A stretch of DNA of 64,000 nt. It comes from an uncultured Chitinophagales bacterium (lineage in GTDB: Bacteria > Bacteroidota > Bacteroidia > Chitinophagales > UBA2359). The notes beneath the pieces are model-generated. The model saw nothing but the letters and a program-made list of their open reading frames with translations. It did no database searches and was not told the origin of the DNA. A program made the position numbers and the translations under genes. The DNA lies in assembly GCA_937927195.1 (NCBI GenBank), contig CALBCY010000171.1, positions 1 to 64,000 on the forward strand, written 5' to 3'. Of this stretch, positions 16,281-60,416 are shown piece after piece. Numbering within the stretch: position 1 is the stretch's first letter; the number at the start of each line of letters is the position of its first letter.

Positions 16281-16718
16281 ATGCCAATTAACATGTACAA
16301 AAAATCACTCTTTTTCCTTTGTCTGTTTTTATCAATTTCTACTAGGGGTCAACTCAGTAACGAAGCCTTAGGAGCCGAACTGGATCAGTTTATTCTTTCA
16401 GAAATGAGCTCAAAAAACTTTCCAGGCTTGTCCACTTGCATTGTAAAAGAAAATCAAGTCATTTGGAATGGAGATTACGGGATAGCCAATTTTGAAACCA
16501 ACGCTCCTGTTGGCCTTGAAACTCTTTTTACAGTAGCTTCTATTTCCAAATTGTTTACCGCCACTGCTTGTGCACAACTATTGGAAAATGGCAAAATTAT
16601 TTGGAGCAAAAAACAGATTGAGAAAAAATTAAAAATAAGCGGACTTTCAAAAAGTCTTTTTTTCGTGAAATTCACCTCTGGGCAGGACAGCATTTCACGA
16701 AAACTAATAAAACAATAA
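16281..16718 (+). pseudogene. Truncated serine hydrolase (beta-lactamase class C / PBP4* family), N-terminal part only
   Basis: 145 residues: a signal peptide (ends TRGQ) and the first part of a class C beta-lactamase-like serine hydrolase, with the nucleophile motif SxxK visible in ASISKLFTATACAQLLENGK. Family members run to 350 residues or more and need a later YxN motif and a His/Lys-containing motif; all of that is missing. After ...NGKIIW the reading frame turns into Lys/Ser-rich sequence with no family resemblance and stops. The other two frames close quickly, so a simple frameshift does not restore it; a deletion is more likely. A 12-bp inverted repeat sits in the abnormal tail. It is expected to be inactive as a hydrolase. 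Confidence 0.7.
16660..16703. repeat. 12-bp perfect inverted repeat at the truncation point
   Basis: TTTTCGTGAAAT (16660-16671) and ATTTCACGAAAA (16692-16703) with a 20-base loop, in the abnormal 3' tail of the broken serine hydrolase. With T-runs around it the hairpin may also work as a terminator. Confidence 0.6.
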
Positions 16719-26138: not shown

Positions 26139-26271
26139 GTGGTTTGGGTTTGACTTGCTATAAATACGTTAACAAAATCAGGCATGTGGAAATACCATTG
26201 TATCCAACAGGAGCAAGTCGGAATGCCGGCAAACCCTATCAACAGCAATGCTAACCAAGCAAACGCACAAA

Positions 26272-26305
26272 AAAAGCCGTTTCCCTGTGAAAAGAAACGG
26301 CTTTT
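26272..26305. terminator. Bidirectional Rho-independent terminator
   Basis: AAAAGCCGTTTC (26272-26283) pairs with GAAACGGCTTTT (26294-26305), 10-base loop, A-run before and T-run within. Sits between convergent trmB and the glucosaminidase gene. Confidence 0.88.
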
Positions 26306-57969: not shown

Positions 57970-59625
57970 ATGAAAAAGTTAAAATATATCTTCCTGTTTG
58001 TTGCATTGGCTGGCTTGGTCGCATTTACTGGAAAAAATACAGAAAGTAATTTGTTTAAACTCGGTAAAAACATGGAATTGCTTGCCAATGTTTACAAGGA
58101 GTTGAACGAAACTTATGTAGACGAAGTTGAACCTGCAGGATTAATGCGCATTGGTCTAAACGCCATGTTGAAAAAACTGGATCCATATACCAATTATATT
58201 TCAGAGGCTCAGATAGAAGATGCAAGATTGAGAAAATTTGCAAGTGGTGGAGACATTGGAGTAAGCCTAATGCAAGAAGATGAAAGGATCATTATCAAAA
58301 GTATTCTGGAAGGTTTACCTGCAGACAGCAGCGGTTTAAAGCAAGGAGATGAGATCATCAGTATTGATGGAAAATCATTGTCCGAACACAGCATGGAGGA
58401 CATTGAGGTTTTCCTGAAAGGCCAACCAGATACTGAAGTTATTATCGATTTTATACCTTTTGGAAAAGAAAGTTCTAAATCTGTTTCTTTACAAAGAGCC
58501 GTCATCAAACCAAAAGATGTAACCTTTTCAAAAATGCTCAATGATTCAATCGGTTATGTAAAATTAACCACCTTCCTTGCGAGAGGTTGCGGAAGTTTTG
58601 TCAATACTGAAATAACAAAATTGCAAACTGAGAATGAAAACTTTAAATATTTGGTTTTCGATCTTCGCAGCAATCCAGGTGGTTTGTTAGATGAATCAAT
58701 TTTGGTTTCTAATATTTTCATTCCGAAAGATGAAATTGCTGTTGTAACAAAAGGAAGAGATCCGGAAGAAGTGAGAGAGTTAAAAACTCCAAGAGATCCT
58801 ACCTTCCCGGATATTCCACTAGTTGTTCTGACCAATGCCAATTCGGCTTCCGCTTCGGAAATAGTTTCAGGAACCATTCAAGATTTTGACAGAGGCGTAG
58901 TTATTGGCGATCGTACTTATGGTAAAGGACTTGTTCAACAAACAAAGGACATTGGATTTAATTCTAAAGTGAAATTGACCATCGCCAAATATTACATCAA
59001 CTCAGGAAGATGTGTACAAGCTGTTGATTATTACGGAGACTATACTGACAAAGGAGCAAAGCAAATTCCAGATTCTCTTAAAAACGAATTTAGAACTAAA
59101 AATGGAAGAATCGTATTTGACAATTCTGGTGTAGCACCAGATATCGATGTTGACGATTTGAAAAACAGTCCTTTGACAGAAGAGCTGATAAAAGAAAATG
59201 CCATCTTCAACTTTGCCAATCAATTCAAAACTCAAACAGATAGCATTGAAGCACCTTTGGAATTTGAAATAAGCGATGCCGTTTTTGAAGATTTCCTTAG
59301 CTATGTTACAACCAGTAAAGTTGACATTAAATTTGATACTGAAACCATCATTAAAGATCTTCAAGAAAGCACAAAAGATGAGAATTACTACGATTCTGTA
59401 AAAGATGATTTGTTGGCTTTACAGAACAAATTGAATTCTTATAAAAACGAAGACATTCGTCAATACAAAGATGAAATCAAAGGTCTTTTGAAGTATGAAA
59501 TTTTAGAAAGATTCTATTATGACAAAGGAAGATTAGAGGCTTCGTTAAATGACGATCCAGACATTCAAGAAGCCTTCTCTTTGTTTGGCGACATGAATAG
59601 ATACAATGAAATTTTAGGAAACTAA
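57970..59625 (+). CDS. S41 C-terminal processing peptidase, tandem paralogue
   Basis: 551 residues. Signal/anchor (IFLFVALAGLVAF), PDZ domain (about 100-175, GLPADSSGLKQGDEIISIDGK) and protease core with Ser294 in NSASASEIVSG and Lys319 in YGKGLVQ, both intact, 25 apart. The C-terminal extension (DIRQYKDEIKGLLKYEIL...) matches that of the upstream copy. Distinct enough from its neighbour to suggest an old duplication with separate substrates. Confidence 0.94.
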   Translation: MKKLKYIFLFVALAGLVAFTGKNTESNLFKLGKNMELLANVYKELNETYVDEVEPAGLMRIGLNAMLKKLDPYTNYISEAQIEDARLRKFASGGDIGVSLMQEDERIIIKSILEGLPADSSGLKQGDEIISIDGKSLSEHSMEDIEVFLKGQPDTEVIIDFIPFGKESSKSVSLQRAVIKPKDVTFSKMLNDSIGYVKLTTFLARGCGSFVNTEITKLQTENENFKYLVFDLRSNPGGLLDESILVSNIFIPKDEIAVVTKGRDPEEVRELKTPRDPTFPDIPLVVLTNANSASASEIVSGTIQDFDRGVVIGDRTYGKGLVQQTKDIGFNSKVKLTIAKYYINSGRCVQAVDYYGDYTDKGAKQIPDSLKNEFRTKNGRIVFDNSGVAPDIDVDDLKNSPLTEELIKENAIFNFANQFKTQTDSIEAPLEFEISDAVFEDFLSYVTTSKVDIKFDTETIIKDLQESTKDENYYDSVKDDLLALQNKLNSYKNEDIRQYKDEIKGLLKYEILERFYYDKGRLEASLNDDPDIQEAFSLFGDMNRYNEILGN

Positions 59626-59630
59626 GATTT

Positions 59631-60021
59631 GTACGCTGCGCTGTTGGTACGGTGCCTGCGGCACCTCTTGGTACGTCTCGGTTTCGCCATTGCTTTTGGT
59701 ACAGCTGCATTGGCCTTGACGGCCAATTTTGCCTGTTGGTAAGTTAGTAGGATCAACAGCTCGGTTTTTATGTTATTGGTACAGCTGATGGCCCGAGGCA
59801 AGTTTCCATCCAACAGGCAAAATTAATCTAAGCTTACCTGGCTTGCGTTCAAGTGCAGCCATTCCAAAAAGCATTTATGTTATTGGTACAAGCAGGTGAC
59901 CCCGAGGCAAGTTTACACCCAACAGGCAAGATTGGCCGATAGGCCAATACAGCCGTACCAACAATAATGGCGAAGCCGAATAGACCAACAGATGAAGCAT
60001 CGTACCAACAGCACAGCGTAC
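59631..60021. repeat. 390-bp composite inverted repeat with internal direct repeats
   Basis: Outer arms GTACGCTGCGCTGTTGGTACG (59631-59651, written in two parts: GTACGCTGCGCTG and TTGGTACG) and its near complement at 60001-60021 (one mismatch). Inner pairs: CGGTTTCGCCAT (59679-59690) with ATGGCGAAGCCG (59967-59978), and GGCCAATTTTGCCTGTTGG (from 59721) with 59917-59937. ATTGGCC...GGCCAAT small palindromes occur on both sides. Between the arms are two direct repeats of about 56 bases starting TTATGTTATTGGTACA (59768 and 59876). TTGGTAC recurs many times. GC content is well above the surrounding DNA. No coding signal. Confidence 0.75.
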
Positions 60022-60035
60022 CCAATACCACAACA

Positions 60036-60416
60036 CTACTTCTTCCGTTTCGAAGCATAAGGCACTGTCTCATCCAATAAAATAGCCTCCTGCAGGACTT
60101 CGTTCAAAGACTCCAATGGAATTTCATCTACACTTTCAAAGCTGATACCCATTACTTGTTTTCTTCCTTTTGCTTCAAGCAAGCCCTGAGCATTGGACAA
60201 TTCATTCCCTCTTAAAAACACCAACTCTACCCTGCCCTTTTGATCTGCTTTACTAGGATTCAAATAACAAATCCAACTCTTTCTATAATAAAATGGAATC
60301 TTATATCGGATTTTTGTAGTCATTTCAGGATGCTCTAACAACAGTTCATGCAGGAACAACATCACACTTTGTGGTCCTTTGGGAAAGGAAAAAATAAAAT
60401 CTTCAACTGCAGACAT
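60036..60416 (-). CDS. DUF1801 domain protein (YdhG-like)
   Basis: 126 residues, a small alpha-beta protein. Marks: FIFSFPKGPQSVMLFLHELLLEHPEMTTKIRYKIPFYYRKSWICYLN and a late ESLNEVLQEAILLDE. DUF1801 proteins are related to a frataxin-like fold; function is not established. No signal peptide. Its coding end lies immediately beside the composite repeat. Confidence 0.85.
   Translation of the reverse strand: MSAVEDFIFSFPKGPQSVMLFLHELLLEHPEMTTKIRYKIPFYYRKSWICYLNPSKADQKGRVELVFLRGNELSNAQGLLEAKGRKQVMGISFESVDEIPLESLNEVLQEAILLDETVPYASKRKK

Follow-up and report, generated by a model that had tools for sequence, protein, structure and literature searches.

Two hairpin arrays between convergent genes

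The DNA analysed here, a stretch of 64,000 nucleotides from an uncultured Chitinophagales bacterium (referred to as the window), contains a 390-base palindrome at positions 59631-60021. The palindrome occupies the gap between two convergent genes, one encoding an S41 peptidase with a PDZ domain on the plus strand (57970..59625, 551 aa; open reading frame, Pfam PF03572 7e-42) and the other a DUF1801 protein on the minus strand (60036..60416, 126 aa; open reading frame, Pfam PF08818 6e-13). As an earlier note on this DNA had claimed, inverted pairs share one common axis: a repeat search of the window aligned three of them on it, namely 59631-59655/59997-60021 (25 nt, 92%), 59678-59716/59941-59979 (39 nt, 85%) and 59720-59739/59919-59938 (20 nt, 95%). 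When the arms 59628-59739 and 60025-59919 were aligned end to end, 89 of 114 columns were identical. The long hairpin that had been proposed is well supported by folding, since the RNA fold reached -180 kcal/mol compared to a mean of -117 for shuffled sequences (z -11.1; 100 shuffles, none as good). The DNA fold of the element gave a z of -9.7, with 0 of 100 shuffles equal to the real sequence. The claims of a repeated TTGGTAC (20 occurrences in the window versus 4.9 expected, 7 of the 20 within the element) and of a higher GC content (0.49, compared to 0.36 for the window and 0.33 and 0.38 for the flanks) hold, too. Two direct repeats are indeed present in the loop, but they measure 58 nt (59767..59824) and 60 nt (59874..59933) instead of the reported 56 bases.

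The palindrome is composed of two separate arrays, placed nose to nose, of a repeat family that mostly occurs singly elsewhere. The left array (59628..59739, plus strand; covariance model match 59663-59739, E 2.5e-18) begins 2 nt downstream of the S41 peptidase stop codon and comprises four tagged hairpins. Unit 1 (59628..59641) consists of the tag TTTGTAC (59628-59634) and the hairpin GCTGCGC (59635-59641), unit 2 (59644..59665) of the tag TTGGTAC and the hairpin GGTGCC-TGC-GGCACC. Unit 3 (59668..59693) carries the tag TTGGTAC and the bulged hairpin GTCTCGGTTTCGCCATTGC; its type provides helices 1 and 2 of the pair counts given below. Helices 3 and 4 belong to the terminal unit (59696..59739), in which the tag TTGGTAC is followed by the two-stem hairpin AGC-TGC-ATTGGCC-loop-GGCCAAT-TTT-GCC and then by TG and TTGG. 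The right array (59919..60025, minus strand; model match 59919-59993, E 3e-21) has the unit order of the left one and begins 11 nt downstream of the DUF1801 stop codon. Both arms begin at most 11 nt from the stop codons of the two genes, and the palindrome is a by-product of two arrays lying behind two convergent genes. A third, degenerate array was detected by the covariance model inside the loop on the minus strand (59809..59897; 26.5 bits, E 5.2e-5).

A dispersed family of tagged hairpin arrays

When the genome from which the window comes (6.3 Mb, 372 contigs) was searched by BLAST, dozens of matches were obtained, almost all to a single arm of about 110 nt. The repeated unit is one arm, i.e. 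a hairpin array of about 110 nt, and not the palindrome. The arrays have a plan in common: short hairpins, each with TTGGTAC in front of it, follow one another head to tail, and a longer two-stem terminal hairpin comes last, followed by TGTTGG. The hairpins belong to few formats: GCTTCGC, GGTGCC-TGC-GGCACC, bulged forms such as ACTTGGCTTCGCCATTGT, and the terminal GGC-TTC-ATTGGCC-loop-GGCCAAT-TTT-GCC. Stems of 2 bp to 7 bp are found within one array. The tag lies immediately 5' of each stem and is unpaired, yet conserved. After one array on contig C62 (L062), positions 16497-16615 contain another hairpin-like repeat stretch (GCGACCCCAAAGATGGCAGCCATCGACCCAAAAGCATAAAAACGCGCGTAGCGGCG...).

A covariance model built on the last two units, with matches accepted to E 0.001, detected 105 matches at 75 sites of the genome, and 52 of the 75 sites carry a single match. 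No match to this model was obtained in 19 other genomes of the same bacterial family, including two of the same genus. The repeat family is therefore species-restricted, dispersed and probably mobile. The earlier note had suggested a genome search for further copies and would have abandoned its reading for a solitary one, a case that does not arise with 75 sites. On contigs of known length, 18 of 78 matches lie less than 600 nt from a contig end (5.5 expected), so that the assembly is probably interrupted by the repeat, and the true copy number may be higher. In the window itself we observed a further weak match on the minus strand at 26203-26276 (28.7 bits, E 1.4e-5), possibly a lone copy that has decayed (...ATTGCTGTTGATAGGGTTTGCCGGCATTCCGACTTGCTCCTGTTGGA).

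The dispersal and the long inverted repeats formed by the arms would also be compatible with a MITE mobilised by a DDE transposase of the classical type, in which the entire 390-bp palindrome with terminal inverted repeats of about 110 bp is mobile as one. Non-coding nature, dispersal and the inverted arms of the window copy are indeed features shared with MITEs. However, the 52 sites with one model match have no inverted partner, so that a partner is absent at most sites, and the spacing varies among the copies that are paired. Furthermore, direct repeats flanking 63 copies were not above those of shuffled pairings; the target duplications expected from aligning copies thus gave no signal. 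Of the MITE-like element proposed earlier, the dispersal and the probable mobility remain, whereas a MITE in the strict sense, with target-site duplication and the palindrome instead of a single arm as the unit, does not. We regard the classical DDE reading as largely refuted and very improbable.

The arrays are intergenic and abut a gene edge with their tagged end. Among the 49 arrays that have genes on both sides, the median distance to the gene is 22 nt for the tagged end and 203 nt for the other, the gene calls being those of a simple codon-usage scorer, so that individual distances may be wrong. The fraction of the intergenic gap that lies on the side of the tag deviates from a uniform distribution (KS p 1e-10). 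Of these tagged ends, 28 are next to a stop codon and 21 next to a start codon. Twenty of the 49 are located between convergent genes, and divergent pairs are rare (5/49). Where two arrays are inverted neighbours, the tags point outside in 6 of 7 cases.

Such a position suggests an alternative, in which the hairpins are a selected RNA structure at the 3' end of transcripts, ending transcription or protecting the mRNA ends of the neighbouring genes, and their spread is incidental. The 28 tagged ends at stop codons and the 20 convergent gaps are in line with it. Downstream of the orthologous S41 gene in three relatives, where the next gene differs, a hairpin followed by a T-run but no array was seen by eye, and no standard intrinsic terminator was found in the convergent gap of the window. 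The relatives' lack of an array points to gain or growth of the array in the lineage of the window. A role of the two window arrays as a shared terminator or in protecting mRNA ends is possible. As an account of the family, however, the RNA structure is at odds with the 21 tagged ends at start codons, and a terminator needs no conserved tag outside its stems. Nor does a function for single genes explain about 75 dispersed copies that are absent from two genomes of the same genus.

The stems are kept by compensatory change. In a 15-pair structure compared over 49 arrays, 89.6% of the cells are paired, and changes on both sides occurred in all 15 pairs (131 such cells compared to 35 in shuffles). 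The covariation score was 0.495 compared to 0.191 for shuffled sequences and at most 0.131 with the partners slid, a control that favours the proposed structure because the structure was derived from the same sequences. Since kinship of the copies can push such scores above those of shuffles, we rely chiefly on the both-sided changes in every pair. Compensatory change is likewise seen in the outer stems of 142 internal units. Few intermediates occur, with only 11 G.T cells and 25 A.C cells among the 734 of the tagged strand (p 0.03).

The scarcity of G.T speaks against a function as RNA of the tagged strand, although the excess of A.C would read as G.U in RNA of the other strand. The rare intermediates fit three possibilities: hairpins of single-stranded DNA, RNA of the opposite strand, or hairpin correction through template switching. 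An Rfam search of the element gave nothing at gathering score, the only match being Giardia U2 with 21 bits versus 100. The structured RNA considered in the earlier note is weakened by these results, as the compensatory changes are nearly all from one Watson-Crick pair to another. Taken as a whole, we consider selection for an RNA at the 3' end unlikely.

Template switching within hairpins would yield covariation, too, and it belongs to a second alternative: passive expansion, in which replication slippage, template switching and recombination spread the hairpins and their arrays unaided by a dedicated enzyme. Changes on both sides of a pair, with few intermediates, are consistent with hairpin correction. 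On contigs C350, C256, C337 and C334, single units and entire arrays with their flanks have plainly been duplicated in tandem, as such processes would do, and no RAYT gene of this genome was found directly flanked by TTGGTAC arrays. Slippage, however, does not bring a complete ordered array with its terminal unit to dozens of unrelated sites, and it explains neither the polar placement at gene edges nor the conservation of TTGGTAC, which is unpaired. We therefore judge passive expansion on its own to be rather unlikely, and prefer an enzyme-driven, REP-like family to which tandem duplication has contributed.

RAYT-like genes and GTAC-tagged hairpins in other genomes

REP sequences are attributed to HUH endonucleases of the RAYT/TnpA-REP type, whose genes are usually flanked by their own repeats (PMC6006769). 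In a first search with Pfam Y1_Tnp, only a classical IS200 on contig C74 was detected. It has no TTGGTAC repeats nearby, and an origin of the arrays as IS200/IS605 ends was rejected. With a looser threshold and the NCBI RAYT model (NF047646), genes predicted to encode RAYT-like HUH proteins were found on contigs C289 (with one stop), C163, C339 and C152, scoring 33-73 bits versus a cut-off of 80. Inspected by eye, their NHFH and YIHSNP/YIHENP motifs do not exactly fit one described subclass.

None of these genes was found with TTGGTAC arrays directly flanking it. The 12-kb contig C339 also contains three TTGGTAC arrays, the nearest of them 1.2 kb from the RAYT-like gene and beyond a glycosyltransferase-like gene. 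On the other side the contig stops 25 nt past the stop codon, so that the far flank lies beyond the contig end, and no overlapping contigs were found. With about 75 sites in 6.3 Mb, we estimate the chance of an array lying this close to one of four RAYT genes at roughly 1/8, which makes the proximity only suggestive. In relatives, RAYT genes of the C339 type have no GGTAC arrays near them and are accompanied by other repeats or none. A homologue in a genome of the same genus, for instance, is situated between ACCTACGAGG...CCTCGTAGGT hairpins, and in the same-genus genome G002 (L421 1401-2117) ACCTACGAGGTTTTTAAAACCTCGTAGGT hairpins stand on either side of a RAYT homologue.

Other repeats lie near the remaining RAYT-like genes. 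Both flanks of the C289 gene (L365 3854-4811) consist of arrays of another family, AACCGCC.ACTTTTGGGCTATC with a period of 22 nt, plus TTTGGTCTNNAGACCAAA palindromes. The C163 gene (L366 3644-3804) adjoins repeats TGGGCTCGCGAGCGTCGCGAGCC of a third family at a spacing of 45 nt, and upstream of the C152 gene (L355 1-400) there is a direct duplication of about 246 nt with the palindrome AGTCACTTGGTGACT. Judging from the repeats of C289 and those beside C163, the genome seems to harbour several RAYT-repeat pairs.

A tag-pattern scan for triple TTGGTAC across named genomes returned mostly coding sequences or simple tandem repeats. Clear hairpins behind the tag were seen in one Lysobacterales and one Bacteroidales genome; in the cyanobacterial matches, GTAG follows right after the tag. 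The Lysobacterales MAG JALHMG (L370 880-2310), which is unrelated to the window's genome, contains a RAYT gene, scoring above the curated cut-off, between inverted GGTAC-tagged arrays. These are built from 37-nt units, GGTAC-GCGGACC-CAT-GGTCCGC, about 8 in one array and 11 in its counterpart. This genome was picked for its tag, while the position of the arrays around the RAYT gene was not part of the selection. By its arrangement, the predicted locus is a REPtron with a GTAC foot and represents the strongest support for GTAC tags. In the Bacteroidales MAG RGIG3374 (L169 2530-2670, L177 5740-5910, L195 3670-3760), tandem TTGGTAC-GCGGGCGTCCC(C)GCCTGCG repeats carry the tag before a GC-rich hairpin; GGTAC hairpins were not found near the RAYT genes of this MAG.

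Relation to REP sequences and possible mode of spread

REPs are small palindromes of intergenic DNA that carry an unpaired tetranucleotide at their foot and keep their pairing despite stem variation; they sit by gene ends, and their dimers are mostly head to head with the tags outside (PMC3733652, PMC2817692). The present family agrees with the general definition, as it is a high-copy, mostly intergenic hairpin palindrome with a conserved unpaired tag at its 5' foot. With the GTAG and CGTC REPs and with BIMEs it shares many copies, restriction to a species and an unpaired tag at one end. Placement near gene ends, tags-outside dimers, tandem clusters and stem variation with the pairing kept are further features in common with them. 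It differs from these in the tag (TTG)GTAC, in ordered head-to-tail arrays of different formats, in a dedicated terminal unit and in stems ranging from 2 bp to 7 bp. Membership in the GTAG or CGTC superfamilies is ruled out, since it requires GTAG/GTGG or CGTC and the tag is GTAC; a REP-like mode of action is not thereby rejected. GTAC is absent from the texts of PMC6006769 and PMC3733652 and present in PMC8266576 only as a mutant, and a GTAC-tagged REP-like family with ordered arrays is undescribed in the literature searched. Compared to known REPtrons (PMC6006769, PMC8266576), the similarities are the RAYT-like genes of the genome and the Lysobacterales RAYT between inverted GGTAC arrays; the difference is that no RAYT gene of the own genome was seen flanked by TTGGTAC arrays. 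Atypical flanking structures, with copies elsewhere in the genome, have been described for the RAYT subclass 2.6 of Bacteroidetes (PMC6006769). Hairpin elements of sponge mitochondria (PMC2800124) likewise invade intergenic DNA and are scattered between taxa. Unlike the window family they are mitochondrial.

On balance, the arrays probably represent a species-restricted, GTAC-tagged, REP-like family, and the palindrome of the window is a tags-outside dimer of it; mobility by a putative RAYT enzyme is the part of this explanation that we infer. The hairpins would form in single-stranded DNA, e.g. during replication. A tyrosine HUH endonuclease of the RAYT/TnpA-REP type might then be guided by the tetranucleotide GTAC at the foot of the hairpin, cut beside the hairpin and join it elsewhere, so that arrays would spread through intergenic DNA. 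Local tandem duplication could subsequently multiply units and whole arrays. The two arrays of the window would have reached their positions behind the convergent genes either in independent events or by one array being copied in inverted form; they now probably constitute a hairpin-rich 3' spacer between two genes, like a BIME. Missing target duplications are the expected outcome of single-strand transposition by HUH enzymes. In vitro, a change of GTAG to GTAC shifts cleavage by the Marinomonas enzyme to GA or GT (PMC8266576). A or T follows the terminal TTGG in 64 of 68 arrays, in line with the GTAC-guide model and cleavage at GA or GT, the array flanks being A+T-rich in any case.

Several observations stand against this explanation. 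Every RAYT-like gene of the genome scores below the NCBI cut-off, the array nearest to the C339 gene is separated from it by another gene, and the homologues of C339 have other repeats or none. GTAG is needed in the systems of E. coli and Stenotrophomonas, and GTAC abolished cleavage in the latter (PMC8266576). Head-to-tail arrays, moreover, are under-represented in most described REP families (PMC3733652).

REP repeats are widespread in bacteria and known chiefly with GTAG tags. More tentatively, GTAC may be a third class of REP tag, occurring in at least two phyla, in which RAYT enzymes would build ordered, terminal-capped arrays with fixed polarity at gene edges. If this doubtful extension were true, the GTAC class would be a modular mobile element instead of a set of single palindromes. 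A natural GTAC family with fixed order and a terminal unit would offer a direct test of the guide model, according to which cleavage at GT or GA is determined by the tag. Furthermore, the arrays supply many natural examples of compensated stem changes, with few wobbles among them, and these are useful for the question of selection at the level of DNA or RNA.
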